From: Lactarius indigo
Taxonomy: Eukaryota; Basidiomycota; Agaricomycetes; Russulales; Russulaceae
Direction: 5' to 3'
Assembly: GCA_025766275.1 (NCBI GenBank)
Contig: JAFKAC010000006.1
Span: 2,294,001-2,358,000, forward strand
DNA length: 64,000 bases
The notes below the pieces were generated by a model. It did not search any database. It had not been told where the DNA came from and saw only the letters and a list, made by a program, of their open reading frames with translations. Both the position numbers and the translations under genes were made by a program. Positions 8,947 through 51,023 of this stretch are shown here, piece after piece (position 1 is the first letter of the stretch; every line of letters starts with the position of its first letter).

Positions 8947-11900
8947 ACCCGTCAGTCTGGGTGAGGGCCTTAAAATGTAATTCTGTAATTGTGACGACAC
9001 GCTACCGATCTCTGCGAATTCCAGTGACTGTCCATACGAATTACCGAATGACTGAAACAAACGCATTGGTGGACTCTGGAGCCACCGACAACTTCATCAA
9101 ACCAGGGATGGCGACACGAGCTGGAATCCCCGTGCAGCCCTTAGAAACGCCTCGCAAAATATGGAACATAGACAATACGGAAAACAAAGCTGGGTTAATC
9201 ACTCATTATGTTAACCTCGAAGTGAAAACACACGGACAGATCAAGAAGATGACCTTCTTGGTGACCGACCTCGGCAGCGAAGACATGGTACTGGGATATC
9301 CATGGCTAAGCGCCTTCGAACCCACGATCAGTTGGGCAACCGCAACCGTGCATCCGGACATGCAGCCGGTAGTTCTGGCCACTACCGAAGAATTACTCAC
9401 GACGCCCACCATACGGGCCCTAATTACCACAGAAAAAGAGGCAATCATTCAAGAACTAGAAGACGAATCAACATTTGCCCGTGCCACCACTTCGACAGAG
9501 CTGGCCATAGCGGCAAAGCAACAACAAACGGCAGCTGTGTTGCCCCCAGTATACGCTGAATTTGACACGCTATTTAACGAACAGGCCTCGCATCGTTTTC
9601 CCCCATCACGGCCATGGGATCACGCCATCGACTTCAAGCCATCTGCGCCAGCCGCGATCGACTGCAAGATATACCCAATGACACAACGAGAAGAAGGCGA
9701 ACTAAAAGAGTTCCTTGATGAAAAGCTAAAGCAGGGGTATCTACGCCCTTCCATCTCCCCGTACGCCTCATCCTTCTTTTTCATTAAAAAGAAGGACGGA
9801 AAACTACGCCCAGTACAGGACTATCGCGTCATCAACTCCCACACAATACGGAACCAATATCCGCTGCCGTTAATCCAGGACCTCATCCTGGACCTCAGCA
9901 ATGCACACATCTACACGAAACTAGATATCCAGTGGGGCTACAACAACATTCGCATCCGTGACGGCGACCAGGAGAAGGCGGCATTCAAAACCAAATTCGG
10001 TCTCTTTGAGCCCACAGTCATGTTTTTCGGCCTTACAAACTCCCCCGCGACCTTCCAAGCAATGATGAACCACATCTACCGTGACACGATTGCGAAGCAC
10101 GAGCGCTTGGGAACGACAATACGTGTTTATATGGACGATATTGGTATCGCCACTCATTTTGACCACGATTTGGCAGCCCACATAGCGGCGGTACGCGACG
10201 TTCTCAGCGTCGCGCGGGAGAACGACCTCTTTTTCAAACTCGAGAAGTGCCTTTTCCATCAACCGCGGATGGATTACCTGGGGGTAATCCTTGAAAGGGG
10301 GGTGACCCGCATGGACCCCGTAAAAGTTCAAGGCATCAAAGATTGGCCAACGCCAACGAAAGTCAAGGATGTTCGTTCATTCCTCGGCTTTTGCAACTTT
10401 TACAGACTCTTCATCCGCGGATTCGCAAACCACGCAAAACCACTCACCAAACTAACGCGAAAGGACACAGAATGGAGGTGGACGGACGAAGAAAATAATG
10501 CGTTCGAAACCCTCAAACGCCTAGTAACGGAAGAACCAGTACTGGCGCATCCGGTTCTTCAAGACCCATTCGAGTTGGAGGTTGATGCCTCCGGATACGC
10601 GGTGGGAGCTGTACTACTACAGAAAAAATCTGACGGAAAGCGACACCCTATAGGCTACTACTCCGCCACGCTCTCGGAGGCAGAGCGAAATTACGACATT
10701 TACGACTTAGAGCTGCTCGCGATAGTCAAGGCGCTGCGGAACTGGAGACCGCTGCTCGCTGGAGCCCCGCACAAAATCAAAATATACTCGGATCACCTCA
10801 ACCTTCAATATTGGAAGTCACCACAAAAGATCAGTCGACGGGTTGCTAGGGAAGTGCTCGAACTCTCGGAATATGACTTCGAGATTCACCACATCAAGGG
10901 AAAGAGTAACGGCAGAGCAGACGCACTTTCGCGACGCCCAGACTACGACCAAGGAGCGAGCGACAACAGTGAAGTCGTCGTTTTGCCCCCTGAAGTCTTC
11001 GTAAGAGCCCTCAACACCGCATGAACCTTTACGGCAAACCCAAATCTGCTGCAACCAAGACATCAACAAGACGACGAGGTAATTAAGATGTGGGTAGACC
11101 CCCATCGCCTCAAAAAAATAGAAGGGGAGTGGTACAAGGACGGCAGGTTCGTGATAACTGGACCTGCATCCACATATCGGGTGCTGATACACGACCACCA
11201 TGATCTGCCGGTACACGGGCACCCCGGCATCGCGAGAACACAACGGATTCTGGAACGACATTACTGGTGGCCCCGACTGCGAAGAGATGTATACGAGTAC
11301 GTCCAAGGCTGTGCGGAGTGCCAAAGGAACAAGATCAACACGAGGCCCATACGGGCTGCGCTACACCCTATCACACCAGAGCTAGAAGCGACCCCCTTCC
11401 AAACAGTCGCTATAGACTTCATCACCAAGCTCCCGCTGTCGAAGGAATACGACAGCATACTGACGATCACAGATCACGACTGCAGCAAAGCCTCAGTCTT
11501 TATCCCATGCAAGGAGGAGATAACCGCAGAAGAAACGGCCGCCCTGTACGTTGCCCACGTGTTTAAGCGTTTCGGATTACCTCGCAAATGTATCAGTGAT
11601 CGGGACCCCCGGTTCGCGTCAAAGTTCACCAGAGAAGTATGCCGCATCTTGGGCATTCAGCAAAACATATCGACGGCGTATCATCCGCGCACTGACGGGC
11701 AGTCCGAGCGCACCAATCAATGGTTGGAGCAGTATCTGCGCTTTTGGGTAAACGAGCGGCAAGATAACTGGGCCACTTATCTACCAATCGCCGAATTCGT
11801 GCACAACAACTGGCCACATGAGAATACGAAACAATCACCGTTTCAACTCCTGATGGGGTACAACCCACAAGCGGACTGGACTGATAAGCCATCTCCCCTT

Positions 11901-13661
11901 CCTCAGGTCACAAGACGGCTAACCCAGCTAAAAGAGGCAAGAGAAGACGCCCAACGGCTCATGAAGAAGGCACAAGAGGCGTGGGTCCGTAACAAAGATA
12001 CGCCCAAGTTCAAGATTGGAGACCTCGTATGGCTAGAAGGCAAACACCTCCGCACCAATCAGCCCACAGCAAAATTAGCGGCGCGACGCCACGGACCCTT
12101 CCGGGTGACACAGGTGATGTCCCCCTATAATTATCGATTGGAACTTCCCACGCAGTGGAGCATCCACCCAGTGTTTCACATCGATCTTCTCACACCATAC
12201 AAACAAACGCCTCTTCATGGCGAGAATTTCACACGACCACCGCCCAAACTGATCGATGGAGAAGAAGAATATGAAGTCGAGGCCATTCTGGACTCCCGGC
12301 ACTTCGGCAGAGGACGGCGACTTCAATACCTCGTCAAATGGAAGGGGTACCCGGACTCGGAGAATCAGTGGGTCGACAAAAATGACGTCTTCGCGCCAGA
12401 AGCGCTTCGTCTCTATCAGGAAGCGCAAGCGCGTGGGGTCGTAGTTAAAAGGACTTCCATCCGGACAGAGGAAAGTCATCCCCTATTCCTTCGCTCTACA
12501 ATCTCCTCTCTCATGCCCACTTCCCCTCTGCGACATGTCACCCAAGCGATCCTCCTCGACTCCCTTGCAGAAGACGCTCGGGCCCTCCTCGCTGAAGATG
12601 ACGAGACTGAGATTCCCAATGCCCAAATCACCCCGTACACACCTGTTGGCCAGCCAGAGGGCCGCATCACCGCACAAGAATGGGCGAACGTCCTCACCCG
12701 ATTTCCAGATCCCACGCAACAGCCCGACGACGAATCCGCCGTCGTCCACGTCTTCCGTGACGAACGAGGGGAGCGCGAACCCATCGCTGCCATCCCCCCA
12801 AGCGACGACCTCATCGGCGTTCGCGGAGTTTTCCCGCGCGACGACGAGCGTTCAAGCTCTCCTGGAGTACGAGTTGGACGGCTGGAGGAGGGTAGCGGCG
12901 GAGTGGCAGAAGGAACAGTTAGACTCAGCCGCGGCCCGACTGAGAGAGATGCGCGAGCGGCGGCAGCGATGGAGGCTGCTGAGGCTGGCCATGACGACGA
13001 CGATTACTACCCGGCACGCCACGCCTTCCTTCGAACGAAAGGCGACCCTACTAATCCCCGCATCACACCCTGGCTCGTCAACTCCGACGGGTCCGCCATG
13101 TACCGAGGACGTGTGCGTGTACCAGGCGCTGCCGACCACCGTCCCTTCACCGCCGCTGACGACCCGGCGCACGTTATTGCGCCTGAAGGGTTCCGGGCGA
13201 ATAGAAGACCCCATCACATTCCATACCCCATCACCGGGCCCGACGGAGTAGAGAGGGACGCATCGCACGTCCAGATCATCGGAGGGGCGGACCCCCTTAT
13301 ACTTGGAGTCATACCGGGCTCCCCTCACTTGTACGGTAAGCCCCTTTACGCCGAACCCCACGTCAGCGCCGCGCTGCGCCCCACGTACCCCCACGAAGAC
13401 CTCGTCATCTTCGCCGCGGACCGAATCACTGACCGCGCCCTCAACCGCATCAACGACGAGACACTCACCGCGGAGGTCACACGCTACCGCGCGGCCAGCT
13501 TCGAGCTGGAACGACTTCGAGCGAGAGTGGCGCAGCTGCGGGACATGATCGCATGTGCCCAAAGCGACCGTCAAGACTCCATCTATAGGTTGGAGCGCGC
13601 CACCGCACTTGAGCGCATTGCGGATGAACAGAGGGACTGGCCGGCTCGAGATTTTCGGTGA
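8934..13661 (+). pseudogene. pol: A1 Pol polyprotein (PR-RT-RNH-INT-chromodomain-tail), one nonsense codon
   Basis: Aspartic protease motif ALVDSGATDNF (near 9060). RT with YMDDIGIAT (near 10130). RNase H with LEVDASGY, DLELLAIVKAL and SDHLNLQYW. Integrase with an HHCC zinc module (HGHPGI..RHYWW..CAECQ, near 11215-11330), DDE residues in AIDFITKLP, SDRDPRFASKF and HPRTDGQSERTNQWLEQYL, a GPY/F-type region (RRHGPF..YNYRLELP) and a chromodomain (YEVEAILDSRHF..LVKWKGYPDSENQWV, about 12271-12400). A ~400-residue tail follows to 13661. TGA at 11022-11024 interrupts the frame just before integrase; copy A2 has CGA there, so it is a CpG C-to-T mutation. RT also has Q for the usual R in KLDIRWGYNN. 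Confidence 0.88.
12535..13251 (+). CDS. A1 overlapping +1-frame ORF, conserved across families (unnamed)
   Basis: 238 codons in +1 relative to pol, inside the post-chromodomain tail. ATG has G at -3. Composition: Ser/Pro/Thr-rich first 105 residues; a basic amphipathic helix at about 108-152 with W-x6-W-x2-EQL-x2-A-x2-R; a C-terminal motif LRLKGSGRIEDPITF. ORFs with the same start point, helix and C-terminal motif occur in A2, C, B1 and B2. Pol is poorly conserved across families in the helix part, so selection there appears to act on this frame. No known domain is recognised and the mode of expression is unknown. Confidence 0.6.
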   Translation: MSPKRSSSTPLQKTLGPSSLKMTRLRFPMPKSPRTHLLASQRAASPHKNGRTSSPDFQIPRNSPTTNPPSSTSSVTNEGSANPSLPSPQATTSSAFAEFSRATTSVQALLEYELDGWRRVAAEWQKEQLDSAAARLREMRERRQRWRLLRLAMTTTITTRHATPSFERKATLLIPASHPGSSTPTGPPCTEDVCVYQALPTTVPSPPLTTRRTLLRLKGSGRIEDPITFHTPSPGPTE

Positions 13662-15968: not shown

Positions 15969-18787
15969 CTAGTACGACAATTCCAAGTCAACTTCACCAT
16001 CAAGACCACATTCATCTGGGGTTAGTAGGGTAAGTCCAGGATGTCTTCGCAAAATATGAACATGATCTTTGTAAGTCCAAATCCCAATAAGGCTGACTAT
16101 AGCTGATGTCTCAAGGGTAAGTACTTCTGATGACCACTTCCCAGACCATCTTCCAAACTTTTGGTGGCGCTCTATCAATGGATGATAGACAACAAGGGAG
16201 AGGCCAGAAACAGTATAGAAGGCTAAGGCCTCTCCAAATATTGGTTTGGTCTTCTCTACCTCTATCTCTGTTTCATCTATAGGCTTATCTTTTGACTGTA
16301 ACAGCCCTAGCTGAGCCTCAAAGTACCTTGAGGAGCGTGAAGTCCTTTTTGAAAGCTCAAAGAGCTGGCTTGTAAGGGTAACACCATCAGGAAGAGGGCA
16401 CTTTCCCCAGCGCAAGTATGTGGAACCTGGCTTTATTTCAGGATAAGACAGAATTGCCTGTGAGTGGTCCTTCAAGTCAGGGTGCTTGTTGGTGATAGGA
16501 ATTTTTTTGAATAGTGAAGTCCTTTGAGCCCTTGCTTGTGGTTCTGGGGAGAGTGTTGGATAAGAGAGATGTAGGATTCTAACAGACTGTTTGTCTGTCT
16601 TGTATGAGACAATATTTTTGAAGGGGGACTTTTTTGACTTTATACCATGTCCAATATCTCCAATGGCCCGCTCACATGTAGCTTGGGAGCCAAATCTGAT
16701 AGAGCCATTATATGAAATATGGAAGGGAATATGGATGAGCTGAAAGATGCATAGTCTGCAGCGGGAAACTTTGGATGGGTCATTGCCAACATAGAGATGT
16801 TCAAATCCTTGAAGAAAAAGGACAATCTTGTCATAAAGCTTGGCTAAATCATCTCTTGTTCGAGGGACAGCTGTCATAGCATACTCCACTACATTTGAGA
16901 ATATAGCAAAGTTCTTGATCACTTCTGGATTGAATCCAAGCTCCAATGTAATAGGGACAATATACCAGTGGAGGAGGGCCATCCATTCAAATATCTTATA
17001 TTGACTTTGTCGCTTTTTAAATGGATCCCGAATAGGTCCACAGAAGGAGGGGGGGAGTGTCGCCATAGCACTTTCAACCTCTGCTCCAAGCTTTGAAGCC
17101 ATATCTTGACCCATAAAGACATCTTCTGACTCAGAGCTAAATGAGACCCATATATCCCAGATATGTGGCATGCAGTTTTCATAGAAGAGATGGAAGGGGT
17201 CAAGTGGGAAAAAGAAGGGATGTGAAAAGGCAGGGCTGGCTGCACAAATGGGAAGACCAGAGACACCAGTTTCCTTTACAATTGCTGCATACTGTGTCTT
17301 ATTGCTCTTTGCAGCTTCAAGCCTCTTGACAATTGCCCAGTAGTCTTCTAGAGTTCGAAGTGGCAAGGCAAAAATGTCATAATCAGGACGATCACTATTG
17401 ATCTCCTGTTTTTGAGGTGGAGAGATGGGATAGTACTGGGATTTAGCACCTAAGATAAAATAGTAAGATAAAATGATACAATAATATTTAAGAAATATAC
17501 TCATACCTCTGTCTTTACTAGTGCGTGCACCCCGCACCATACTAAAACGGCACCCATATATAGCCATATGTCCCGCCATTCTGCTGAGTTTTGCAGAACC
17601 AAGCATATCTCCAAGAACACCACAAAGAAAGACCTTTAAGAGGAAGTGTTGTTCTGAGAGTGCATCCCAAGACCATACACCAACACTGAGCCTTGCAAGT
17701 TCCTCATAGAGGACATAAATGAATGACTCCACATTTCCAGGTGAAGAGGGCCCAGGAATGACAAGTGGAATGATGATGTTGGCAGCCTTAGACCGCATGT
17801 TGGGAGGAAGGTTTAAAATTGTGACAACAAGGACCCATACATCAGACTGCTTCTTCATAGTGAGCTGAGCGCCATCACCTGAGATAGTTATTGCAGTGTC
17901 TCTGGGATCTTGGAATAAATAGGAGTGATTAATATGACTAATGGAGTCAGAGAAATCTGAGTGTGTGGTGGGGGATAAATCAGGCTCTAGCTCTTTCAGA
18001 GCCTTTTGTAAGTGCTCATGTCGGTATCGCATAGCTTTCGCCATGTTCTGATTCATATAGAATGACTGGATAATAGGGGCAATGGGGGTGTAGAACATTT
18101 GAGCCCTTGGATGACCATTCTTGTCATAGCGCTGCTGGCCACATGGCCCAAGCTGTTTGTTGCGAATATAGGTGCATGAAGAAAGGTCTTTAAACTCTCC
18201 AGTGAAGGCCATGCAGCTTTTAGGGCACATGTCAACCAGCTGAGATGACAGCCCTGTAAGCTCTATGGCAAGCTTCCGCACCATATATAGGCTGAGGATC
18301 TCAATGCCTGTAGCCTCTTGAAGGACATGTGCATGGAGCTTGTATGCCTTCACAGTACCGCGTGAGTCGACCCAGGCAATGTAGTGCTTTAAAGACAGTG
18401 CCTCATCTTGGGTAAGCATACGACCTCGAGGGTCATCAATGGGTGGGTGATTGGGAAGGGTATAGCCAGATAAAAGCTGTGTCCGAAGTTGTCTCACAAC
18501 TTCTGGAAAGTCAGCACCACCAAAGTCATCGCCCTCATCAGAACTGACATCAGCTGGCTCCCCCTCAAAAAAGGAGCTGGGGGACACCAAAGCAGGATGA
18601 AGCTCAGCCTCAGCCTCATCATCAGAGTCAGAGTCAGAGCCAGAGCCAAAGCCAGAGCCCACAAATCCAGAGCCAGCCTCAGACAGTGCAGTGGGGTCCA
18701 TCTCTGAGTCAGAGACATTCGGGTCCATCCCTAGATAAGCCAGATCAGGAGAGCCTAGATCAAAGTCCATATCAGGACTAAAAAGAT
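15969..18787 (-). CDS. Tnp2-type (CACTA/EnSpm-like) transposase, main part
   Basis: Exons 18787-17507 and 17449-15969, with a 57-nt in-frame intron 17450-17506 (GTATGA..CTTAG). Joined to the two 5' exons at 55493-55898 the CDS is 3,108 nt (1,035 residues) with matching phases. An acidic N-terminal stretch is followed by CPKSCMAFTG..CTYIRN..CGQQRYD (zinc-ligand-like cysteines) and the core ISGDGAQL..SDVWVLVV .. PLVIPGPSSPGNVESF .. YGCRFS seen in fungal Tnp2 proteins. Such transposases cut and paste DNA elements with CACTA termini. The reading frame is intact, but retroelement A2 now separates it from its first exons, lying in the intron between 18788 and 55492. Terminal inverted repeats were not found. 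Confidence 0.75.
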
Positions 18788-18814
18788 CTAACATCATGCA
18801 GCAGTAAGCATGGA

Positions 18815-19367: not shown

Positions 19368-22300
19368 TCACCGAAAATCTCGAGCCAGCCAGTCCCTCTG
19401 TTCATCCGCAATGCGCTCGAGGGCGGTGGCGCGCTCCAACCTATAGATGGAGTCTTGTCGGTCGCTTTGGGCACATGCGATCATGTCCCGCAGCTGCGCC
19501 ACTCTCGCTCGAAGTCGTTCCAGCTCGAAGCTGGCCACGCGGTAGCGCGTGACCTCCGCAGTGAGTGTCTCGTCGTTGATGCAGTTGAGGGCGCGGTCAG
19601 TGATTCGGTCCGCGGCGAAGATGACGAGGTCTTCGTGGGGATACGTGGGGCGCAGCGCGGCGCTGACGTGGGGTTCGGCGTAAAGGGGCTTACCATACAA
19701 GTGAGGGGAGCCCGGTATGACTCCAAGTATAAGGGGGTCCGCCCCTCCGATGATCTGGACGTGCGATGCGTCCCTCTCTACTCCGTCGGGCCCGGTGATG
19801 GGGTATGGAATGTGATGGGGTCTTCTATTCGCCCGGAACCCTTCAGGCGCAATAACGTGCGCCGGGTCGTCAGTGGCGGTGAAGGGACGGTGGTTGGCGG
19901 CGCCTGGTACACGCACACGTCCTCGGTACATGGCGGACCCGTCGGAGTTGACGAGCCAGGGTGTGATGCGGGGATTAGTAGGGTCGCCTTTCGTTCGAAG
20001 GAAGGCGTGGCGTGCCGGGTAGTAATCGTCGTCGTCATGGCCAGCCTCAGCAGCCTCCATCGCTGCCGCCGCTCGCGCATCTCTCTCAGTCGGGCCGCGG
20101 CTGAGTCTAACTGTTCCTTCTGCCACTCCGCCGCTACCCTCCTCCAGCCGTCCAACTCGTACTCCAGGAGAGCTTGAACGCTCGTCGTCGCGCGGGAAAA
20201 CTCCGCGAACGCCGATGAGGTCGTCGCTTGGGGGGATGGCAGCGATGGGTTCGCGCTCCCCTCGTTCGTCACGGAAGACGTGGGCGACGGCGGATTCGTC
20301 GTCGGGCTGTTGCGTGGGATCTGGAAATCGGGCGAGGACGTTTGCCCATTCTTGCGCGGTGATGCGGCCCTCTGGCTGGCCAACAGGTGTGTATGGGGTG
20401 ATTTGGGCGTTGGGAATCTCGGTCTCGTCGTCTTCAGCGAGGAGAGCCCGAGCGTCTTCTGCAAGGGAGTCGAGGAGGATCGCTTGGGTGACATGTCGCA
20501 GAGGGGAAGTGGGCATGAGAGAGGAGGTTATGGAGCGAAGGAATAGGGGATGACTTTCCTCTGTCCAGATGGAAGTCCTTTTAACTACGACCCCACGTGC
20601 TTGCGCTTCCTGATAGAGGCGAAGCGCTTCTGGCGCGAAGACGTCATTTTTGTCGACCCACTGATTCTCCGAGTCCGGGTACCCCTTCCATTTGACGAGG
20701 TATTGAAGTCGCCGTCCTCTGCCGAAGTGCCGGGAGTCCAGAATGGCCTCGACTTCGTATTCTTCCTCTCCATCGATCAGTTCGGGCGGTGGTCGTGTGA
20801 AATTCTCGCCGTGAAGAGGCGTTTGTTTGTATGGCGTGAGAAGATCGATGTGGAACACTGGGTGGATGCTCCACTGCGTGGGAAGTTCCAATCGATAATT
20901 ATAGGGGGACATCACCTGTGTCACCCGGAAGGGTCCGTGGCATCGCGCCGCTAATTTTGCCGTGGGCTGATTGGTGCGGAGATGTTTGCCTTCTAGCCAT
21001 ACGAGGTCTCCAATCTTGAACTTGGGCGTATCTTTGTTTCAGATCCACACCTCTTGTGCCTTCTTCATAAGCCGTTGGGCGTCTTCTCTCGCCTCTTTTA
21101 GCTGGGTTAGCCGTCTTGTGACCTGAGGAAGGGGAGATGGCTTATCAGTCCAGTCCGCTTGGGGGTTGTACCCCATTAGAAGCTGAAACGGTGATTGTCT
21201 CGTGTGTTCATGAGGCCAGTTGTTGTGCGCGAATTCGGCGATTGGCAGATAAGTGACCCAATTGTCTTGTCACTCATTCACCCAGAAACGTAGGTACTGT
21301 TCTAGCCATTGGTTGGTGCGTTCGGACTGTCCATCAGTGCGTGGGTGATATGCAGTCGATATGTTCTGCTGAATACCCAGAATACGGCATACTTCTCTGG
21401 TGAACTTTGACGCGAACCGGGGGTCTCGATCACTGATGCATTTACGAGGTAATCCGAAATGCTTAAACACGTGGGCAACGTACAGGGCGGCCGTCTCTTC
21501 CGCGGTTATCTCCTCCTTGCATGGGATAAAGACTGAGGCTTTGCTGCAGTCGTGATCTGTGATCGTTAGTATGCTGTCGTATTCCTTCGACAGCGGGAGC
21601 TTGGTGATGAAGTCCATAGCAACGGTTTGGAAGGGGGTCGCTTCCAGTTCTGGTGTGATAGGGTGTAGCGCAGCCCGTATGGGCCTCGTGTTGATCTTGT
21701 TCCTTTGGCACTCCGCACAGCCTTGGACGTACTCGTATACATCTCTTCGCAGTCGGGGCCACCAGTAATGTCGTTCCAAAATCCGTTGTGTTCTCGCAAT
21801 GCCGGGGTGCCCGTGTACCGGCAGATCATGGTGGTCGTGTATCAGCACCCGATATGTGGACGCAGGTCCAGTTATCACGAACCTGCCGTCCTTGTACCAC
21901 TCCCCTTCTATTTTTTTGAGGTGATGGGGATCTACCCACATCTTAATTACCTCGTCGTCTTGTTGATGTCTTGGTTGCAGCAGATTTGGGTTTGCCGTAA
22001 AGGTTCGTGCGGTGTTGAGGGCTCTTACGAAGACTTCAGGGGGCAAAACGACGACTTCACTGTTGTCGCTCGCCCCTTGGTCGTAGTCTGGGCGTCACGA
22101 AAGTGCGTCTGCTCTGCCGTTACTCTTTCCCTTGATGTGGTGAATCTCGAAGTCATATTCCGAGAGCTCGAGCACTTCCCTAGCAACCCGTCGACTGATC
22201 TTTTGTGGTGACTTCCAATATTGAAGGTTGAGGTGATCCGAGTATATTTTGATTTTGTGCGGGGCTCCAGCGAGCAGCGGTCTCCAGTTCCGCAGCGCCT

Positions 22301-26519: not shown

Positions 26520-29500
26520 TTACTGGAAGTCCCGCGCGATCCACTCACGCTGCTCATCTTCGATACGTCGGAATACGTCTGCTCGCTCCAAGCGGTATAC
26601 ACAGTCCATCTTGTCCTCGCGGGCGACAAGGACCATACCGCGGAGTTGGCGGATACGCGCCTGTAGGCGCGACTCCTCGTGGGCCGCGGCGCGATACCGC
26701 GTCACCTCCGCAACCAGGGACTCATCCCCTATGCGGTTAAGTGCGCGATCCGTGAGTTTGTCGGCGGCGAGGATTACAAGATCCTCGTGGGCAATGAAGG
26801 CGCGGTTCGCGGCCGAGAGGCGAGGGGCGGCATAAAGGGGTTTGCCGTAAAGATAGGGGGATCCCGGGATGACTCCCAGGACAAAGGGGTTCGCACCTCC
26901 GACAATCTGTATATGACTTGCCTGTAACTCTACTCCGTCCGGCCCGGTGATGGGGAAGTGAATGTAATGGGGCTGTCGATTCGCCCGGAACCCTTCAGGC
27001 GCAAGGACCTGCGCGGGGTCCTCGTCGCGCGTGATGGGGGTGTGTAGTGCGACGCCGGGCAGTCGCACACGTCCTCGAGACATGGGGGTTCCGTCGGTGT
27101 GCAAGAGCCACGGGGTGATTCCGGGATCAGCAGAGTCGCGGTTCGTTCGAAGGAGGGGGTGGCTGACCGGGTAGTAATCTCCGTCGTCATGGTCAACTTG
27201 GTCCGGCATCGCTGCCTGCGCTGCCGCAACTCGCTCAATCTCTCTTGCGCCAACCTCAACTGTTCTCTGGCCCATTCCTGAGCCGTCTTCCGCCAAACCT
27301 CCTCCGCTTCCATCTCCTCCCGGTCCTTCGTTAGATCGATCGGTCGGGAAAACTCCCCTAGTACCGATAAGAGCGTCGTCTGGGGGGATGATTGCGATGG
27401 GTTCCCGCGCCCCGCTGTCGTCTCTGAAGATGTGAGCGATGGCAGGCTGCTGCTCGTTGCTGGGCTGGCGCGTGGGGTCTGGGAACCTCTGTAGGAGGCT
27501 AGACCATTCTTGAGCGGTGATATGCCCCGTTCGCATGTTTGCAGGTGTGTACGGAGTGAGCTGGACCGCTGGAACCACGGTTTCTTCGTCGTCTTGGATG
27601 ATGGCGGCGGCGTCTTGTGCGACTTGGTCGAGGAGGATCGCCGTGGTGACATGTCTGAGAGGAGAAGTGGGCATAGACGTAGAAGTAGATCGGAGGTAAG
27701 AGTGATACTCTCCCTGACACTCCTCGGTCGCGTTTTTAAGTCCTCGTACGGCTGTTCGGGCTGTCTGGTATGCCTCTATCGCTTCTGGGGCAAAGACGTC
27801 ATCTTTATCGACCCACTGATTCTCCGAGTCGGGGTATCCCTTCCATTTGATGAGATACTGGAGTTTCTTGCGGCGGCCGAAATGCCGCGAGTCCAGAACG
27901 GCCTCGACTTCGTATTCTTCTTCCCCTTCCACAAGATCCGGCGGCGGTCGAGGGAAATTTTCACCATGCATAGTCGTGTTTTTGTATGGCGTGAGAAGAT
28001 CTGTGTGAAACACCGGATGGATGCTCCACTGTGTGGGAAGTTTGAGGCGGTAATTGTATGGGGACATCACCTGGACTACTTCAAACGGGCCGTGGCGTCG
28101 CGCCGCGAGTTTCGCCGTAGGCTGATTGGTTCGAAGGTGTTTTCCTTCTAGCCATACTTGGTCGCCTATTTGATATCGCGGGGTGTCTCGGTGTTTCACC
28201 CAACTATCCTGGGCCTTTTTGATGAGGGTCTGAGCCAGCTGTCGCGCTTCTTTAAGCTGTGTGAGTCGGGTGATAACGTTTGGGATAGGGGATGGCTTAT
28301 CCGCCCAATCAGATACGGGATCGTAGCCCATAAGTAGCATGAATGGTGATTGCTTCGTATGCTCATGGGGCCAGTTATTGTGAGCGAATTCTGCTATGGG
28401 AAGGTATGCTGCCCAGTTATCTTGCCGCTCGTTGGCCCAGAATCGCAGGTATTGTTCTAGCCACTGATTAGTTCGTTCCGATTGTCCATCGGTTCGTGGG
28501 TGATACGCCGTCGAAATGTTCTGCTTGATGCCCAAGATTCGGCACACTTCTTTAGTGAACTTGGACGTGAATCGGGGGTCGCGGTCACTGATAATCTTGC
28601 GCGGCAGCCCGAACCGTTTGAACACGTGATTGACGTACAAGATAGCAGTTTCCTCCGCCGTGACTTCTTCATTGCACGGGATAAATATGGAAGCTTTGCT
28701 GCAGTCGTGATCGGTGACGGTAAGAACGCTGTCATAGGACTGGGACGCTGGTAGTTTAGTAATGAAATCCAGCGCAATGGTATGAAAGGGGGGAGCGTCT
28801 GTCGCCGCAGTAATGGGATACAGTGGCGCACGCGTTGGCCTTGTATTGACTTTGTTTCGCTGACAATCGGCGCACCCCGTAACGTATTCGTACACGTCTC
28901 GACGGATACGTGGCCACCAGTAGTGTCGTTCCACTATTCGTTGAGTCCTACTGATGCCGGGATGTCCGTGAATAGGGGGATCGTGATGGTCATGTATGAT
29001 TGTCCTGTACACAGATGTAGGCCCCGTGATCACCAGTCGTCCGTCCTTGTACCATTCTCCTTCGATTTTCTTCAGCTGATGGGCGTCGACCCATCCCTGG
29101 ATGATTTTTGGGTCTTGCCGCCGTTTCGGTGTTTGCAGCATTGGATGTATTTCCAAGGCGCGCGCAGCATTAGCAGCTCGTACAAATACTTCTGGGGGTA
29201 GGACCACTACACCTTGGTTATCCCCTTCTCCCTGGTCGTAATCCGGTCGCCTAGATAAGGCATCTGCTCTTCCATTGTTTTTTCCCTTGATGTGATGGAT
29301 CTCGAAATCATATTCCATCAGTTCCAATACTTCCCTGGCAACCCTTCGACTGATCTTCTGGGGGGTCTTCCAGTATTGAAGATTGAGATGGTCGGAGAAT
29401 ATTTTAATTTTGTGTGGAGATCCTGCGAGCAAGGGTCTCCAGTGTCGAAGGGCCTTGACGATGGCTAGGAGCTCCAGATCGTAAATGTCGTAGTTTCGTT

Positions 29501-29998
29501 CAGCTTCACTTAGCGTGGCAGAGTAGTACCCTATTGGGTGCTTGCGACCGTCATTTTTCTTTTGGAGAAGTACGGCACCTACTGCGAATCCGGACGCGTC
29601 GACTTCTAGCTCGAATTGGTCTTGTAAATTGGGATGTGCCAGTACCGGTTCCTCCGTGACGAGGCGTTTGAGGGTTTGGAATGCACGATCTTCGTTTTCT
29701 GTCCATTTCCACTCTGCATCTTTTCGGGTGAGTTGGTTCAATGGTCGTGCGTGTGTCGCGAAACTGCGGATAAAAAGGCGGTAAAAGTTGCAAAAGCCCA
29801 AGAAGGATCGTACGTCCCTGACCTTGGTCGGAGTTGGCCAGTCCTTGATGCCGCGAACTTTTACCGGGTCCATGCGTGTTACCCCCTTTTCAAGGATTAC
29901 CCCCAGGTAATCCATCCGCGGTTGATGAAATAGGCACTTCTCGAGCTTAAAATAGAGATCGTGGTCCTGGGCGACGCGGAGAACGTCAGTCACAGCAG
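26520..29998 (-). CDS. pol: C Pol, 3' part (RT thumb to tail)
   Basis: Continues the C pol frame interrupted by D; one TSD copy and the phases (1+2) restore the frame. Contains the end of RT (KLEKCLFHQPRMDYLGVILE), RNase H (LEVDASGF, DLELLAIVKAL, SDHLNLQYW), integrase (HGHPGI..CADCQ; ALDFITKLP; SDRDPRFTSKF; HPRTDGQSERTNQWLEQYL), GPY/F-like region, chromodomain (YEVEAVLDSRHF..IKWKGYPDSENQWV) and a ~420-residue tail to 26520. No nonsense codons. Confidence 0.88.
26930..27652 (-). CDS. C overlapping +1-frame ORF, conserved across families
   Basis: 240 codons in +1 to pol. Starts MSPRRSSST, G at -3 of the ATG; helix at about 111-150 aligning without gaps to the A and B ORFs (W-x6-W-x2-EQL-x2-A-x2-R); ends with LRLKGSGRIDSPITF then S/P-rich. 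A pyrimidine-rich tract with CTCTCAG lies just upstream of the ATG, a possible splice acceptor in this family only. Confidence 0.6.
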   Translation of the reverse strand: MSPRRSSSTKSHKTPPPSSKTTKKPWFQRSSSLRTHLQTCERGISPLKNGLASYRGSQTPRASPATSSSLPSLTSSETTAGRGNPSQSSPQTTLLSVLGEFSRPIDLTKDREEMEAEEVWRKTAQEWAREQLRLAQERLSELRQRRQRCRTKLTMTTEITTRSATPSFERTATLLIPESPRGSCTPTEPPCLEDVCDCPASHYTPPSRATRTPRRSLRLKGSGRIDSPITFTSPSPGRTE

Positions 29999-30003
29999 CA
30001 ATA

Positions 30004-30625
30004 TGTTGATAAGTGACCCTTGCGCACTTAGCGGCTCGTACGGACCGGACTTGCAGCATGGACTGCCTTAGATTAGATATACAGGACTTGTAGATTAGAT
30101 ACTATTTGATCTGTACAATCTGGACTTACCATTGCGTCATCTATGACATCACTGTACTTCTATGACATCATACATCCGGACTCTGCGTTGTATAACGCTT
30201 TTGTACTTCTCTTTGTTCTTTACTTGGAATTATCTTTATTATGATGTCAGTATGATATCATCTAGTTCTGGACTCTCCTTGTTCTCCTTTCCCTTGTTCT
30301 CAAAGTGTCCACTCTTTTGTCCCTTTGTAGAACAATAGCACCTTTGTATTCTGTAACTAGCGTTACTTACCTTGTACTACTGTCACCCTCTGTAGGAGTA
30401 TAAGTAGAGTACCATGTACGCTCCTGGTCCACATCAGTTCTCACTGTTTGTGTGCCAGGTAAGCTCCCTTCTCTCCAATGTAACAACATCAGTTCTCACT
30501 GTTTGTGTGCCAGACACTCTGCTTCACTTTGCTAGATTCCTGTTTGCTGCTTCCAGCCACCCAGCTTGTCTCACCACAGTCTACTTTGTCTCTGTGAGTA
30601 AGCTATCTATGTGTGCTGTTCATCA
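30004..30625 (+). repeat. D 5' LTR
   Basis: Contains a 28-bp direct repeat ATCAGTTCTCACTGTTTGTG..CCAG at about 30434-30460 and 30489-30514. The first copy ends in CCAG-GTAAGC (5' splice-like) and the second in GTGCCAG (3' splice-like). A TATA-like AGTATAAGTAGAG lies near 30396-30408. Confidence 0.9.
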
Positions 30626-31407: not shown

Positions 31408-33982
31408 ATGTCTTCTCGCGCACCATCTCCCACTGGCGCTGCTGCCGGTGCTACTGCTACTGCGGGGGGCTCTACACTTCCCCCCACTGGATCCTCACCC
31501 TCTGCTCGTATCTCTGCTGCCTATGGCGCAACGTTTGGCATGCCATCTGGCATTCGCCTTGAACAGTTCGACGGCACTCACTGGAATGAGTGGTCTGGGA
31601 CGATTGAAGCCATCCTCACGCTGCATGAAGCAGAGGATGTGTTCACCCTCCACCATGGACCAGTCGACGTCCCTCAAGACGAATGGGACTCAGTACAGCG
31701 TCGGGCGAAGGCGTATCTCCGCCTTTACCTCAAACCTGACGTCTACTCCCTCGTTGCCGACAATGCCGCCTATCCCACCTTCAAAGCCAAATGGGACAAG
31801 CTCAGAGACGTATACGCTGGTGCTTCGGGCAGCACCACTATCTTCAATTTGTGGATCCAGCTAACTCAAGCCCGCCTCGACGACTCCGCACCCATGGCCT
31901 CTCAATTGGCCAAGCTCAATGAGCTACGGGTTGCCCTTTCCAACGCACAGATGGGTGTCACTGACACTCAATTCTGTCTCATTCTCCTCCACGCACTGCC
32001 ACCCTCTTATGAGGTGTTGGCCTCTACCATCCTCGCCAGTGGGGCCCCGTCTGCACTCAAGCACGCTGAGATCATAGCGCGCATAGTGTCAGAAGAAGCT
32101 TGCCGCTCCGGGCCCTCTGGCTCCTCCCTCAACAAGGTGGCCCCCGTCAAGTCGACGGGCAAGAAGGGCAAGAAGGACCACTCTGGTCTAACTTGCCACT
32201 ACTGCAACAAAAAGGGCCACATCAAGCCTGATTGCAGGAAGAGGAAGAAGGATGAGGCTGATGCAAAGGAGAAGGAGAAAGCAGGCAACAAGGCTGCCAA
32301 TAGTCATGTCCTAGTACCTACCACCGCCTCCATTACAGAGGTCGTAGAGCCCAAGATAGACTGGGCCTCTGAATCAATTAGTGTTGCCTTGTATGCTGCC
32401 TCGCGTGTGCGTTGGATGATGGACAGTGGTGCTACACACCACATCACCCCACATCGGTCTGACTTCAAGGACTACACCCCAACTAAAGGCACTGTACGCC
32501 TGGGTGATAAGTCCACAATAGACCAAGTGGGTGTCGGGTCTGTCGTCTTTACTACGAGCCAGGGTATCTCTATCACCCTCAGTAATGTGCTACACCTACC
32601 ACAGGTGAAGACGCGCTTCTTGTCGACACGCGCCCTAGCACAAAAAGGTGCTGAGATTGCCTTTGATAGTGGCTCATTTAAAATATCTATCAATCAAAAG
32701 TGTGTGGCCAAAGGCTACCTTGAGGACAACCTCTACTGGTTGGACGCAGCCAGCGTCGGCCTCAACGCCCACACAAAATCAAGTGCTGCCACACTTGATA
32801 TCTGGCATCAACGCATGGGACACATCTCCTCTGCGGCGCTGAAGGCGCATGGTCCCTCTGCCACTACTGGCATGGACATAGATAGCTCTACCACGGCCCA
32901 CACAGTCTGCCGTGGGTGCGAGATGGGCAAGTCCACTCGCCAACCTTTTTCTGCGTCCTCCAACAAGAGGACAACTCGTCAATTTGAGATTGTGCACAGT
33001 GACCTCGCCGGTCCTATGCAGACTCAGTCCCTGCAAGGCTCGACCTACACTGCCACCTTCATAGACGACCACACTAAGTTCACTGTGGTCCACTTCCTTA
33101 AGTCGAAGGATCAGTTTGCTAAGTCGCTGCAAATGTATTTGGCCTGGGGTGAAACCCAGTCTGGCCATAAACTGCGCGCTCTGCACTCTGACCGCGGTGG
33201 CGAGTACATGTCGAGTGTCACGCAGGACATACTTAAGCAGAAAGGGATAGAGCATCACCTTACGATGCCGGGTTCACCACAGTCCAACGGTAAAGCCGAG
33301 CGGTTTAACCGCACCATTATGGATAAGGCAATGTCCATGCTCCACACAGCTGGCATGTCTAAAGGCTTCTGGGAGCATGCAGTGTGCGCAGCTGTGCACA
33401 TCTATAATCGCTCTCCAGTCTGTGGGCTTAAGTGGCGCACTCCTTATGAGCTCTGGCACTCTGGCAAAGTGCCTGATGTTTCACATCTTCGCGTCTTCGG
33501 ATGCAAGGGGTACATGCACGTACCCGCTGATAAGCGTCGCAAATTGGATGCGAAGGCCATTGAGGTCACGCTTATCGGGTTTGAGCCCGAATCTAAGGGC
33601 TATAAGCTCTGGGACCGCTCAACCCGCTCCGTCCGAGTGTCCAGGGATGTGACATTCGACGAGAGTAGCTTCCCGTCCCTTCAGGGTGTTGAGACACACC
33701 CCACACCTTCACCACCAGTCGTGCCTAGCACAACAGTGACTGCCGTGCCTCACCCGCCGGCGTTACCACCAATGCGAGCCCCCTCCCCTGCACACTCCAG
33801 TAGTAGTGAGGAGGAGGATGTTGAAAAGCTCTTAGACCCCCCACAAGTCCAACCACGCCCCACCACTCCACCACCTGCTCTGCCAGCTCCGCCCACCACA
33901 CCTAAGCGTGAGCAAGCCACTCCCACTTCACCCCCGCCACGTCCTAGTGCAACGCGCATTATGCGCCATGTCCCTCCTCCCT
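31408..33982 (+). CDS. D gag-pol, 5' part (Gag, protease, integrase)
   Basis: Starts at ATG 31408. Gag capsid-like region (FDGTHWNEWSGTI..), CCHC knuckle CHYCNKKGHIKPDC (about residue 262), protease WMMDSGATHHITPH, pre-integrase HQRMGHIS..CRGCEMGKSTR, integrase DDE residues in VHSDLAGPM, LHSDRGGEY and SPQSNGKAERFNRTIMDKA, then a Pro-rich linker cut by B1 at 33982. Single-frame gag-pol without frameshift, typical of many copia elements. The frame continues exactly at 41792. Confidence 0.88.
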
Positions 33983-34491
33983 TGTTACGGTACGGACTTG
34001 ATGACTCATTACACACGACTCATGACCGGTTATGACTACGGTCCGGTATTGATATTAGTCATGGACTCTTACATCGTATCAGTCAGCATAGTAGTTCGCA
34101 TGTGATTGTGACTCATGTATGACTCATTCCTAGGATAGCGGTACTAGGGTTCGAGCTAGTTACGCTATTGGTTACCTACTATTCCAGCGGCGCTTTAAAG
34201 CCCGCGCGTATTTGTATAAGTAGTCGACTCGGAAGACCAAGAGTCCCCATCTTGGTCTTCTTCAATCCACCTTCTGAATCGTCTCTTGTCTGCCTTAGTC
34301 TTCGACTAAGTGTGCTTCCTCTAAGTGTCTGCCAAGGGACACTTCTCTTTATCCTTTTGCTGCAGCGTGTGCTAGTGTGCCCCTGTTCAGCCTGCGTTGG
34401 GTTGACACGTGATCCCCATTCGCCTAACTTTCGCTAAGTCGATTACGCCTTTCACGAGTCCAAGTCGGACTGACGCCGGTGGAGCGTAACA
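33983..34491 (+). repeat. B1 5' LTR
   Basis: Includes TATA-like TGTATAAG at 34213-34220 and the predicted RNA start ATCTTGGTCTT at 34249-34259, 36 bases apart. No ATG occurs between that start and the primer site. Confidence 0.92.
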
Positions 34492-39400: not shown

Positions 39401-41245
39401 ACACGGGAGTCCCCCTTCTTTCTCTTATCTGGATTCAACCCTCGCGCTGATTGGACCGATAGGCCTTCCCCTATCCCGCAAGTGTCGTTGAGGCTAGACC
39501 AATTCAAGCAAGCGCGACAGCGCGCTTTCTCCTGTATGCTCCGAGCACAAAAGTCATGGGTCAAGCACAAAGATACGCCCAAGTTCAAAGAGGGAGACCT
39601 CGTATGGCTAGAAGGACGCCACTTACGCACCCATCAACCAACCGCAAAACTAGCGGCTAAACGACATGGACCATTTAAGGTCATCCAGGTGATGTCCCCT
39701 GTCAACTATCGCCTTGAACTTCCCACACAGTGGAGCATCCATGATGTCTTCCACATAGATCTTCTCACGCCTTATCGTGAAACACCCACGCACGGACCAA
39801 ACTATCAGCGCCCACCACCTGATTTGGTCGATAACGAAGAGGAATACGAAGTCGAGAAGATTCTAGACTCTCGGCGATTCGGCAGAAGGCGTCGGCTCCA
39901 ATACCTTGTCAAATGGAAGGGCTATCCAGACTCGGACAATCAATGGATAGATAAGGATGACGTATTTGCCGACGAAGCCGTACGGGAGTTCAAATATTCC
40001 AACCCCGACCGGGAAACACATATAAGGGCGACCTCTTGCCGCGATAAGTCCCCAACTCCCATTCACTCCATGTCCTCTACTCGACGCAATGACCAGCTTG
40101 CCCTCCTCTCTACCCTCGTCAACGACTCCTCCGCCACGCTTGTCGACCCCGACACCACCGACAACACCGCAGCCAATAGAGTTGCAGATGGAGGCCGTAC
40201 CACCCTGCAGCATGAGGAAGACGGCCCTATCACTAGTGAAGAACTGCACCAGACACTGCAACGATTCCCTATGCCCGTACAGGGAATTGTCGACGACGAT
40301 CCAGCAGCAACTCAACCAGCACCTCCGCCGCCAATGTACGCCCTCACAAACCCCAACACCGGTGAGCCCGAAGCCTTCCTCACCGAAGACGAGTTGTTTC
40401 GGCTTCAAGCAGCTGTCCCGCGCGGTGAAACCACCGAACGCTATGCAGAAGTACGAGCAAGAATGGAAAGAGACGGCGGCGCGGTGGCAGCGGGAGCAAC
40501 TGCATATCGCCGCCTGCCGACGACGGATGATGAAGGAACGCAGGGAGTATTGGACGAAGATGAGGATGAAGACGAGCTTGGAGACCACTACCCCATCAGG
40601 CACGCATTCCTTAACCATGAATTCTACGCTGAAGATCCAGCCGCCACTCCCTACCTCGTCGACGCAGCGGGGGGACCTCTACACAGAGGACGAGTCGCCG
40701 TGGCACAAGCGGCTCGTTATACACCAATGGGCGAACGAGACCCCGCAACCAGGGCCGTCGTCCCTGAGGGGTTCCGGATCAATCGAGGACCCGATTACAT
40801 TCCGTTCCCGATCAAACTCCCCAACGGACCGACGGTACAAGCATCCCACGTACAGGTTATCCGAGGAGGAGACCCCTTCGTACTCGGATTAGCTCCGGGA
40901 TCGGGTTTCCTCTACGGTAAACCTCTCTACGCCACTCCGCATCTCCCCAAAAATAACCGCGCCTTCATCCCACACGAGGAGTATTTTATGCTCCGCGATC
41001 GACACCCCACGGACCTGCTGCTCATGCGCATTGGGGATGTCACCCTCATTCAAGAATTGCGCCGGTTCCGGCAGTTCGCCTTTGCTGAAGAGCAACTGGA
41101 GAAGCGGATAAGGCAGTTGCGGCTAGAACAAGAGATGGTGGTGCAGGATAAAAAGGACAGTCTCTATCGTCTGGAGCGCGCTAACATATTGGCAAGGATG
41201 GAAGATGAGGCGGAACGGATGAGGAAAGAATCGATAGCGGATTAG
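36455..41245 (+). CDS. pol: B1 Pol polyprotein with one in-frame TGA
   Basis: Protease (ALVDSGATHCF), RT (YMDDIGIAT), RNase H (LEVDASGF; SDHLNLQYW), TGA at 38720-38722 after WYKDG, then in the same frame integrase (HGHPGIKRT..CAECQ; AVDFITKLP; SDRDPRFASKF; HPRTDGQSERTNQWLEQYL), GPY/F-like region, chromodomain (YEVEKILDSRRF..LVKWKGYPDSDNQWI, about 39848-39960) and a ~415-residue tail ending in a predicted coiled coil. The single TGA is shared with B2; it may be a readthrough site or an inherited defect supplied in trans. Confidence 0.87.
40089..40892 (+). CDS. B1 overlapping +1-frame ORF, conserved across families
   Basis: 267 codons in +1 to pol, starting at the position homologous to the A and C ORFs (G at -3 of the ATG). 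Ser/Pro/Thr-rich first half, basic helix at about 118-162 (W-x6-W-x2-EQL-x2-A-x2-R), GSGSIEDPITF motif, then a 24-residue extension not present in A or C. Identical length in B2. Confidence 0.6.
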   Translation: MTSLPSSLPSSTTPPPRLSTPTPPTTPQPIELQMEAVPPCSMRKTALSLVKNCTRHCNDSLCPYRELSTTIQQQLNQHLRRQCTPSQTPTPVSPKPSSPKTSCFGFKQLSRAVKPPNAMQKYEQEWKETAARWQREQLHIAACRRRMMKERREYWTKMRMKTSLETTTPSGTHSLTMNSTLKIQPPLPTSSTQRGDLYTEDESPWHKRLVIHQWANETPQPGPSSLRGSGSIEDPITFRSRSNSPTDRRYKHPTYRLSEEETPSYSD

Positions 41246-41791: not shown

Positions 41792-43112
41792 CACCAGAAA
41801 TGCCTGGGGGATTTGAGGATCGTGCACAGCGTAGCCAGCTGTTGCGCGAGATGGACAATGCACCAAGGCGCACTGCTCGTGTCCCTGTGCCTAATCCGCG
41901 TTACTTCAATGCGGACAATGCGGCATGGCGCGGCAGGCGTCTGGGGTATGCGGAGTTACTGGCTGCTGCCTTTGTGGGCCGAGACCCTGCAACTTATGCA
42001 GAGGCCATGAGGTCTGCAGCTGCAGATGAGTGGACTAAGGCGTGTCAATATGAAATGGACGCCCTAGCTAAGAACGGGACTTGGGAGTTAGTGGATCTCC
42101 CGCCTAATCGCAAGGCAGTAAAATCCAAATGGGTCTTTAAGCTCAAAGCGGATGGCCGCTACAGAGCTCGCTTGGTGGCTAAGGGATTCACGCAGATCCC
42201 TGGCGTAGATTTTGATGAAACCTTCTCTCCCGTCGCACGATTTGAGTCGCTACGTTTACTTCTGGCGTTGGCCGCGCTGGAGGACTGGCACATCCATCAG
42301 ATGGATGTTAAGTCTGCTTTTCTCAATGGCGTGCTTGACGAGGAGATTTACATGGAGCAGCCACAAGGTTTCACTGTCACTGGCTCTGAGACGAAGGTGT
42401 GTCGCCTGGTTAAGGCGATCTATGGTCTCAAACAGGCCTCCCGCGCATGGAACTTGCAATTTCATGGAGTGCTCACTGCACTCGGCTTTAAGCGGACGTT
42501 TGCTGATGCTGGCATATATGTGATGCCTCAACGGGAGGGGTATGATCCACTCTTCGTTATTGTCTACGTTGACGACATCACTATACTGGGTCCCTCGCTG
42601 AGTGGTATCAAGCGTTTGAAGTCAGATTTGTCTGAACGCTATGAGATGACAGATCTCGGGGAGATAGAATCTTATCTTGGTATGCGCATTGTGCGCGACC
42701 GCTCCCTTAGACGCATCGAAATAGATCAGTCTGGCTACATCAAGGATGTCCTTGAACGCTTTGGCATGTCTGATGCCACACCACACAACACACCCTTGCC
42801 TGCTGGTGCTGACGAGCACCTAGTTAAATATACGTCGCAGGCAACTGCCTCAGATATTTCCCACTATCAATCCTTGATTGGGAGTCTGCTTTATGTGCAG
42901 ATTGGCACTAGGCCAGATATCTCCTTCGCTGTGTCACGTTTGGCGCAGTACGCAGCGAATCCCTCACCACAACATCTGCGACTTGCGCAGTATGTCCTGT
43001 CCTACTTAGTGGGAACTATGGATATGCGTATTGTCTATGATGGCGCCAATGGCGATGGCCTTCATGGCTACACTGATTCCAGTCTGGCTGATCAGACTGA
43101 TGACCGCCACTC
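41792..43112 (+). CDS. D gag-pol, middle part (reverse transcriptase)
   Basis: Continues D in frame after B1 (phase 1 + 8 nt reaches ATG 41800 in frame). Copia RT: WVFKLKADGRYRARLVAKGF, FSPVARFESLR, QMDVKSAFLNG, GLKQASRAW and YVDDITIL, then IGSLLYVQIGTRPDI and the start of RNase H (LHGYTDSSLADQ) cut by E at 43112. Confidence 0.9.
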
Positions 43113-43655
43113 TGTTGAGACGCGACTGTTAAAGTCACATGTCTCGTGGGATCTGATTGAGTCAGCCCACATACTATATACGGTATCTGTCCCTTATGGA
43201 CTTATGGACATTCCGGACTCATACGGACCGCTTTTGTTTATCTTTATTGTTAGATCCATATATGGTTCTTATTGTTCTTTCTATTGTTAAGATACCGGTA
43301 TTGTCTGCTTTAGGCAGCTATTGTTCTCTGCCGTCCAATGGCATTTCTCCCTCTGGCGCACAGACCACCTGTATTGTGTTTGGGTCACCAGTGCGCACAG
43401 ACCATCATTAGCTAAGCGTCCTGTATATAAGGACTGCTGTTTTCGCCTCTACACTTCAGAGTTCCTTCTACCTCTGAAGTGTAAGTTCCTTCTTTCTACC
43501 TTACTCTTTCACCTTTACTTATAAGACGTTCTATAGAACTTGTCTGTCTTTAGGTGTGTAGTAATGGTATTAGAGTTCCTTCTACCTCTGAAGTAACTTG
43601 TCTGTCTTTAGCTCCCCAAGCTTAACATCTTGCTTGTTAGTTCTGCGCTTCAACA
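43113..43655 (+). repeat. E 5' LTR
   Basis: TATA-like CCTGTATATAAGG near 43420-43432. A 23-bp direct repeat AGAGTTCCTTCTACCTCTGA.. occurs at about 43458 and 43572; GTAAGT follows the first copy, and CTGTCTTTAG occurs both before and after the second. Confidence 0.92.
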
Positions 43656-50396: not shown

Positions 50397-51018
50397 TGTT
50401 GATAAGTGACCCTTGCGCACTTAGCGGCTCGTACGGACCGGACTTGCAGCATGGACTGCCTTAGATTAGATATACAGGACTTGTAGATTAGATACTATTT
50501 GATCTGTACAATCTGGACTTACCATTGCGTCATCTATGACATCACTGTACTTCTATGACATCATACATCCGGACTCTGCGTTGTATAACGCTTTTGTACT
50601 TCTCTTTGTTCTTTACTTGGAATTATCTTTATTATGATGTCAGTATGATATCATCTAGTTCTGGACTCTCCTTGTTCTCCTTTCCCTTGTTCTCAAAGTG
50701 TCCACTCTTTTGTCCCTTTGTAGAACAATAGCACCTTTGTATTCTGTAACTAGCGTTACTTACCTTGTACTACTGTCACCCTCTGTAGGAGTATAAGTAG
50801 AGTACCATGTACGCTCCTGGTCCACATCAGTTCTCACTGTTTGTGTGCCAGGTAAGCTCCCTTCTCTCCAATGTAACAACATCAGTTCTCACTGTTTGTG
50901 TGCCAGACACTCTGCTTCACTTTGCTAGATTCCTGTTTGCTGCTTCCAGCCACCCAGCTTGTCTCACCACAGTCTACTTTGTCTCTGTGAGTAAGCTATC
51001 TATGTGTGCTGTTCATCA
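50397..51018 (+). repeat. D 3' LTR
   Basis: 622 bp, matches the 5' LTR, including the 28-bp internal direct repeat. Confidence 0.92.
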
Positions 51019-51023
51019 CAATA

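Follow-up and report, generated by a model that had tools for sequence, protein, structure and literature searches.

The window, i.e., the whole stretch of 64,000 nucleotides of Lactarius indigo DNA that was analyzed, contains nested retroelements. Three families, A (copies A1 and A2), C, and B (copies B1 and B2), are Ty3/gypsy chromoviruses according to Pfam, with the integrase zinc finger, the SH3 domain and the chromodomain above the cut-off and rve below it. The pol ORF of C showed, in this order, the RNase H of the reverse transcriptase, Integrase_H2C2 and Chromo above the cut-off, with rve below. Integrase and Chromo were also matched in the pol of A1 and B1 in a Pfam scan without the RT parts, and the presumed 5′ part of C contained gag with a zinc knuckle (Pfam). 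As LTR repeats are present, the features that characterize Ty3/gypsy chromoviruses (LTRs, zinc-knuckle gag, RT-RNase H/integrase order, chromodomain) were all found. The features discussed below are the following:

11088..13661, plus strand: piece of the A1 pol ORF (ORF, Pfam) with integrase zinc finger, rve (below cut-off), SH3, chromodomain and tail
12445..12450, plus strand: TTAAAA, the A1 TATA-like box of the internal promoter that we propose from conservation
12477..12480, plus strand: A1 initiator CATC, with the A at 12478 as the proposed start, lying 33 nt from the first T of the box
12513..13661, plus strand: A1 Pol tail (382 aa), read in the pol frame from the conserved ATG1, which has a pyrimidine at -3
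12535..13251, plus strand: A1 +1 ORF, 238 aa, with a Ser/Thr/Pro-rich disordered N-terminus, a long helix (predicted, residues 92-159) and a C-terminal GSG.I..PITF
19778..20494, minus strand: A2 +1 ORF, 238 aa; box 20584-20579, proposed start A 20551, ATG1 20516
26930..27652, minus strand: C +1 ORF, 240 aa; box TTAAAA 27739-27734, proposed start A 27706, ATG1 27674
26520..27674, minus strand: C Pol tail from ATG1, 384 aa
40089..40892, plus strand: B1 +1 ORF, 267 aa; box TATAAG 40021-40026, proposed start A 40054, ATG1 40070
40070..41245, plus strand: B1 Pol tail from ATG1, 391 aa
59397..60200, minus strand: B2 +1 ORF, 267 aa; box 60268-60263, proposed start A 60235, ATG1 60219

Element C (region 26000-54569) is apparently split into a gag part at 50996-54252 and pol at 26520-30059. 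Between its halves lies a block bounded by a 300-bp identical repeat (at 30003 and 50396), and a copia element inside this block (31408-34032 and 41800-43287) was itself apparently split by B1. Also, a copia-type polyprotein of 1467 aa (gag, integrase, RVT_2) is open in one frame at 44662-49062, and a 942-aa ORF with a Transposase_21 (tnp2) domain, probably belonging to a DNA transposon, occupies 15972-18797.

The 90.3-Mb assembly yielded 150 (A), 151 (C) and 144 (B) scored matches from 1396, 1340 and 1345 first-look candidates, respectively. The pol frame was open over about 1590-1620 codons, running through the linker that follows the chromodomain, in many of the copies listed. From these long open frames, the three families look recently active. 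Beyond the chromodomain, pol continues into the tail, for which Pfam gave no match above the cut-off. The tail has a pI of about 5 and is itself conserved, with identities to A1 of 61% in C and 39% in B. Its structural model was poor (mean pLDDT 41.9), with a long predicted C-terminal helix, and searches with the tail as query matched only L. indigo proteins, three per search. Given the open linker in many copies, the tail is presumably made at least also as the C-terminus of Pol, and perhaps also alone from ATG1.

A second ORF lies within this tail, in the +1 frame relative to pol. The first-pass annotation had described five such ORFs, each with a G at position -3 of its ATG, and all five were found at their places, with 238 (A1, A2), 240 (C) and 267 (B1, B2) codons and the announced G. 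Across 97 distinct copies of the families this position was always a purine (G in 93, A in 4). The length of the ORF was set aside as proof, as synonymous shuffles of the pol codons equaled it in 81 (A), 33 (C) and 2 (B) of 2000 trials. The helix W-x6-W-x2-EQL-x2-A-x2-R and the GSG.I..PITF end could both be aligned across the families, in agreement with the same annotation, which had also called the pol frame divergent in the helix stretch. Indeed, identity along the helix was higher in the +1 frame than in pol for A1-B1 (48% vs. 30%), C-B1 (31% vs. 10%) and A1-C (49% vs. 35%). Conversely, pol was the better conserved frame before the helix in these three pairs, and also after the helix in comparisons with B (44% vs. 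35% for A1-B1, 41% vs. 29% for C-B1); the two frames were about equal there between A1 and C (64% against 67%). Within the window, a loose GSG.I..PITF pattern (at 13189 in A1) matches these five ORFs only; we take this end to be reminiscent of SUMO-interacting peptides.

The +1 protein is predicted to be a disordered chain with a single long helix (residues 92-159); the mean pLDDT is 56, with more than 90 in the helix core. This product had been proposed to be a small basic, perhaps nucleic-acid-binding protein. Its charge lends no support to that idea, and was dropped as a hint of such binding, as pol codons shuffled synonymously gave +1 products about as basic as the real ones (mean pI of shuffles vs. 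observed: 11.11 vs. 11.11 in A, 10.74 vs. 10.39 in C, 9.94 vs. 9.70 in B). The high pI thus appears as a by-product of the frame. Pfam returned no family above the cut-off for the +1 protein, and no relative was found in the PDB (best match 4rfx_A, E = 0.86). With a profile of the ORF, the 8000 best candidates out of 5.8 billion proteins were scored and none matched at E ≤ 0.01, and no relative was matched in the viral_contigs and genome_contigs (bacteria, archaea) sets; in these protein and contig searches, no relative was found outside the L. indigo genome.

To follow substitutions in both frames, a first comparison used the 60 of 82 sequences with unbroken pol (3 without the end motif and 19 with pol stops were dropped), paired within families (18 A, 23 C and 12 B copies). 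These sequences had been ranked by similarity to the ORF, a possible source of bias, so that copies were sampled again using only the part of the pol tail located after the ORF. This gave 33 copies: 16 of C (15 alignable), 8 of B, 4 of a C-related group (C′) and 5 of A, the only A copies sampled independently of the ORF. The single C copy that could not be aligned (L082) was left out of the two-frame rates, the frame controls and the column test, and the four C′ copies served for the counts of ORF integrity only.

All of the 32 alignable copies retained both the ATG and the TAG of the ORF, and 29 of them had neither stop nor frameshift in it, one C copy among these having lost 63 bases in frame. 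The three breaks were a stop in one C and one A copy and a frame-breaking length change in one C′ copy. Over the same copies, the third frame contained 7-17 stops each, and the pol frame of the overlap had a stop in 5. Thus, the frequent stops or frameshifts which, according to the first-pass annotation, would speak against a gene were not observed in further family members. In the lists ranked by ORF similarity, rows with a stop numbered 22/150 (A), 9/151 (C) and 13/144 (B).

Differences at pol third positions dropped sharply over the ORF. For C, they amounted to 0.26 before and 0.30 after the ORF; most of the ORF gave 0.02-0.06, and its last 37 codons 0.10. Corresponding values for B were 0.18 before, 0.31 after and 0.04-0.08 inside. 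The helix of A reached 0.007 against 0.24 and 0.29 in the flanks, contrary to the absence of any reduction in the helix region that had been named as a refutation, and the other parts of the A ORF gave 0.07-0.14. Pol position 1 showed no fall inside the ORF. In windows of 12 codons, the drop began at the ORF ATG (0.266 at -15, 0.034 from -3) and ended at its stop in C; in B, it began some 20 codons into the ORF and ended with the longer B ORF. The first half of the A ORF is only mildly constrained (0.11-0.21 per window vs. 0.13-0.36 upstream). Counted by column, variable pol third positions were 58/239 inside vs. 113/135 after the ORF in C (15 copies, p = 6e-30), 58/266 vs. 84/116 in B (8 copies, p = 8.5e-21), and 63/237 vs. 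42/79 in A (5 copies, p = 2.8e-5).

Changes were also classed by their effect in the two frames. Changes silent in pol and missense in the ORF had rates of 0.068 inside vs. 0.34 before and 0.41 after in C, and of 0.094 vs. 0.29 and 0.46 in B. Changes silent in both frames were at 0.50 (C) and 0.54 (B), on few sites (1.7-5.5 per pair). Reciprocally, changes missense in pol and silent in the ORF (0.062 in C, 0.136 in B) exceeded double missense changes (0.017 and 0.026) by 3.6- and 5.2-fold. The ratio of the pol-silent rate inside to that after the ORF was 0.17 (0.12-0.21) in C, 0.20 (0.15-0.26) in B and 0.45 (0.32-0.60) in A, i.e., pol-silent changes are 5-6 fold lower inside the ORF in C and B and about 2-fold lower in A. 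Among the five second frames tested, +1 gave the fullest dual-coding pattern; the Ns/Nn contrast also exceeded 1 after the ORF in C (2.12), so that this measure alone is not decisive in that family. As judged from these substitution patterns, the pol and +1 frames are both under purifying selection between the ORF ATG and its stop, more weakly in A. The three families share ancestry, and their agreement does not therefore represent three independent events. Altogether, these data strongly support a real, dual-coded +1 ORF kept by purifying selection. Antisense ORFs were also noticed over the Pol tail (12852-13574 and 39863-40618), where pol third positions are unconstrained beyond the +1 stop.

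The linker between the chromodomain and the tail evolves almost freely, except for two islands. The first is a TATA-like box, which reads TTAAAA in A and C and CATATAAGG in B; the second lies downstream of it. In C and B, no other 6-nt stretch of the linker varies as little as the box, which ranks in A next after windows of the second island. At the third positions of the box, variation is 0.0 for both C and B and 0.074 for A, vs. 0.281 (C), 0.205 (B) and 0.327 (A) in the rest of the linker. The bases of the CATC initiator were invariant in the 26 ungapped A copies used. Measured from the first T of the box, the YA of the initiator lay 33 nt away in 91 of the 97 distinct copies (A 25/28, a variant A′ 4/5, C 35/37, C′ 9/9, B 18/18), duplicate upstream stretches being counted once and two copies without the ATG1 anchor (L009 and L082) not entering the linker counts. 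When spacings of 20-49 were scanned, 33 alone exceeded 80% in A, C and B. Two of the six exceptions were without a box by the pattern used, two had another box at the position taken as the start of the count, and two had a spacing of 32. The 33-nt spacing persists where indels shift the pair relative to ATG1 (-71, -68, -65, -49). As a control, the LTRs carry a box, TATTTAA or TATAAG, with a CATC at 34 nt, a spacing found in 25/29 A LTRs with the anchor motif, in 30/30 C LTRs and in the one B LTR read. TTAAAA is a poor match to the TATA consensus. Nevertheless, we infer from this conservation that the islands form a core promoter laid out like the LTR promoter.

Downstream of this candidate promoter, position -3 is a pyrimidine for the pol-frame ATG1 and a purine for ATG2, where the ORF starts, in 97/97 distinct anchor-bearing copies. 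The two codons are separated by 22 nt in A and C and by 19 nt in B. With a start site that is itself predicted, the leader to ATG1 would measure 35 (A), 32 (C) or 16 (B) nt. A short predicted leader, a weak first AUG and a stronger second AUG nearby are thus found together, and the arrangement would be that expected for leaky scanning. The annotated gene model P0005 begins at ATG1, and the models P0006, P0007 and P0008 do not. The first-pass annotation had overlooked what is likely the expression apparatus of the ORF, namely this core promoter and the two-ATG layout upstream.

We propose that the candidate core promoter of the linker, with its TATA-like box and a YA initiator 33 nt further on, would start a short capped mRNA, with a leader of 32-35 nt in A and C and of 16 nt in B ahead of the weak pol-frame ATG1. 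Leaky scanning would then yield two products, the Pol tail as a free protein (ATG1) and the +1 protein (ATG2). This model of a dual-coded accessory gene nested in the pol tail, expressed from an internal promoter through a short mRNA, appears to us, from sequence comparison, the probable one. A further step is weaker: our guess is that the +1 protein, mostly disordered with one long helix, would act in trans as a factor of regulation or assembly, by way of contacts between helices. Its partner may be the Pol tail, at the end of which a long helix is likewise predicted.

Several other explanations were considered. The +1 ORF could be produced from a spliced subgenomic RNA, as are many retroviral accessory genes, with the box as branch site and the second island as acceptor. 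An AG is retained in this island by 80 of the 83 copies from A, C and B (26/28, 36/37 and 18/18), about 26-30 nt from the box, and 14 of 18 B copies have no other AG between the two; the conservation of this AG slightly lowered our confidence in the model proposed above. Against a splice site, every A and C copy has other AGs in this interval (means of 1.9 and 4.1), which is also not rich in pyrimidines (0.41 in A, 0.26 in C; 0.54 in B), whereas the pyrimidine-rich part sits further downstream (0.74-0.83 up to ATG1). Moreover, the layout from box to YA is that of the LTR promoter, and a donor in the leader would imply an intron of several kilobases, which is very unusual in basidiomycetes. Splicing seems to us unlikely. 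We assign a similarly small chance to the islands being kept for the amino acids of pol, with the +1 ORF translated from the genomic RNA by another internal entry. The box does encode a hydrophobic and basic pair in all three families (V-K, L-K, I-R), but its nearly invariant third positions are not explained in this way, one C copy has TTATAA, still box-like, with an altered pol residue, and the spacing of 33 survives indels which move the pair relative to ATG1.

A +1 frameshift on the full-length mRNA would give a Pol fusion with an alternative C-terminus and leave ATG2 incidental. The +1 frame is indeed open upstream of ATG2 over about 20 to 90 codons in many of the listed copies; yet this upstream stretch is variable except for the two islands, the constraint in C begins at ATG2 and not before it, and ATG2 was never lost in the 32 alignable sampled copies, which makes a frameshift quite improbable. 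Finally, there might be no second protein at all, the lower third-position variation being due to gene conversion, to an antisense gene, or to an element acting as RNA or DNA. An antisense ORF of 240 codons (12852-13574) overlaps the +1 ORF, and its register leaves pol position 1 free too. This ORF was rejected as the source of the constraint, which halts at the +1 stop while the antisense ORF extends further; also, changes silent in both frames reach only 0.37 (A), 0.18 (C) and 0.26 (B) in the antisense register, vs. 0.84, 0.50 and 0.54 in +1. Gene conversion or a frozen element does not fit the two-frame rates, with position 1 unreduced and both-silent sites varying about neutrally. We therefore hold the absence of a second protein to be highly improbable.

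Dual-coding genes nested in others are characteristic of compact viruses. In hepadnaviruses, the envelope is produced from subgenomic RNAs that arise at internal promoters. The envelope ORF of these viruses is nested in the polymerase P (PMC5604429), and the likeness to the present case is that a reverse-transcribing element has one gene located wholly within its replicase ORF. However, the product there is an envelope and here a small, mostly disordered helix protein, in an LTR retrotransposon whose host frame is a tail following integrase and chromodomain. Foamy viruses possess an internal promoter with a TATA box and a cap site at the 3′ end of env, which drives tas and bet (PMC3798896). 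The resemblance is that an additional promoter lies toward the 3′ end of the coding region, within another gene and upstream of accessory ORFs; that promoter is at the end of env, whereas our candidate is in pol, with an ORF wholly within pol. The likeness described is one of layout, and the promoter here is a predicted one.

Among LTR retrotransposons, yeast Ty1 uses an internal second promoter for the Ty1i RNA, from which the trans-acting p22-Gag is made (PMC5834202; see also PMC8458377 and PMC4599808). It shares with our elements a fungal host, together with a second promoter inside the coding region, a short RNA and a trans-acting protein, these three being predicted here, but p22 is a truncated Gag, while the present product has a sequence of its own, encoded out of frame in pol. 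The maize element Grande is reported, in a paper cited by PMC11963269, to carry an accessory gene between pol and the 3′ LTR, with its own promoter and a nuclear protein; the gene is antisense according to PMC11963269 itself. It resembles our families as an LTR element with an accessory gene having its own promoter (here predicted), and differs in that the gene is antisense and beyond pol instead of nested in it. The Tcn1-like clade groups fungal Ty3/gypsy chromoviruses with a chromodomain (PMC2864245). Families A, C and B are similar as chromodomain-bearing Ty3/gypsy elements; their additional Pol tail of 382-391 aa and the nested ORF may set them apart.

A +1 gene nested in the pol of a Ty3/gypsy element was not described in the open-access full-text matches listed. 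The first-pass annotation had spoken of a real and undescribed dual-coded protein: the first adjective is strongly supported by selection in two frames, and the second is consistent with the searches, among the matches listed. Thus, a gene nested in a polymerase and an accessory gene with an internal promoter are known in kind, and the novelty, consistent with these searches, would be a selected +1 gene in Ty3/gypsy pol together with a candidate promoter of its own. As a doubtful extension, a clade of mushroom chromoviruses may have independently evolved a regulation like that of complex retroviruses, with an internal promoter laid out like that of the LTR and a bicistronic mRNA for two overlapping proteins, of which the +1 protein, a long coiled-coil-like helix within a disordered chain, would act in trans, for example in copy-number control or as a transactivator.

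If the nested gene is expressed as proposed, "simple" gag-pol elements can conceal accessory genes that annotation misses. As the genome contains many copies, transcripts and peptides should be easy to seek. Also, these families offer a natural test case for two proteins sharing one sequence, as the helix is kept mainly in the +1 frame and the stretch that follows, in comparison with B, mainly in the pol frame.
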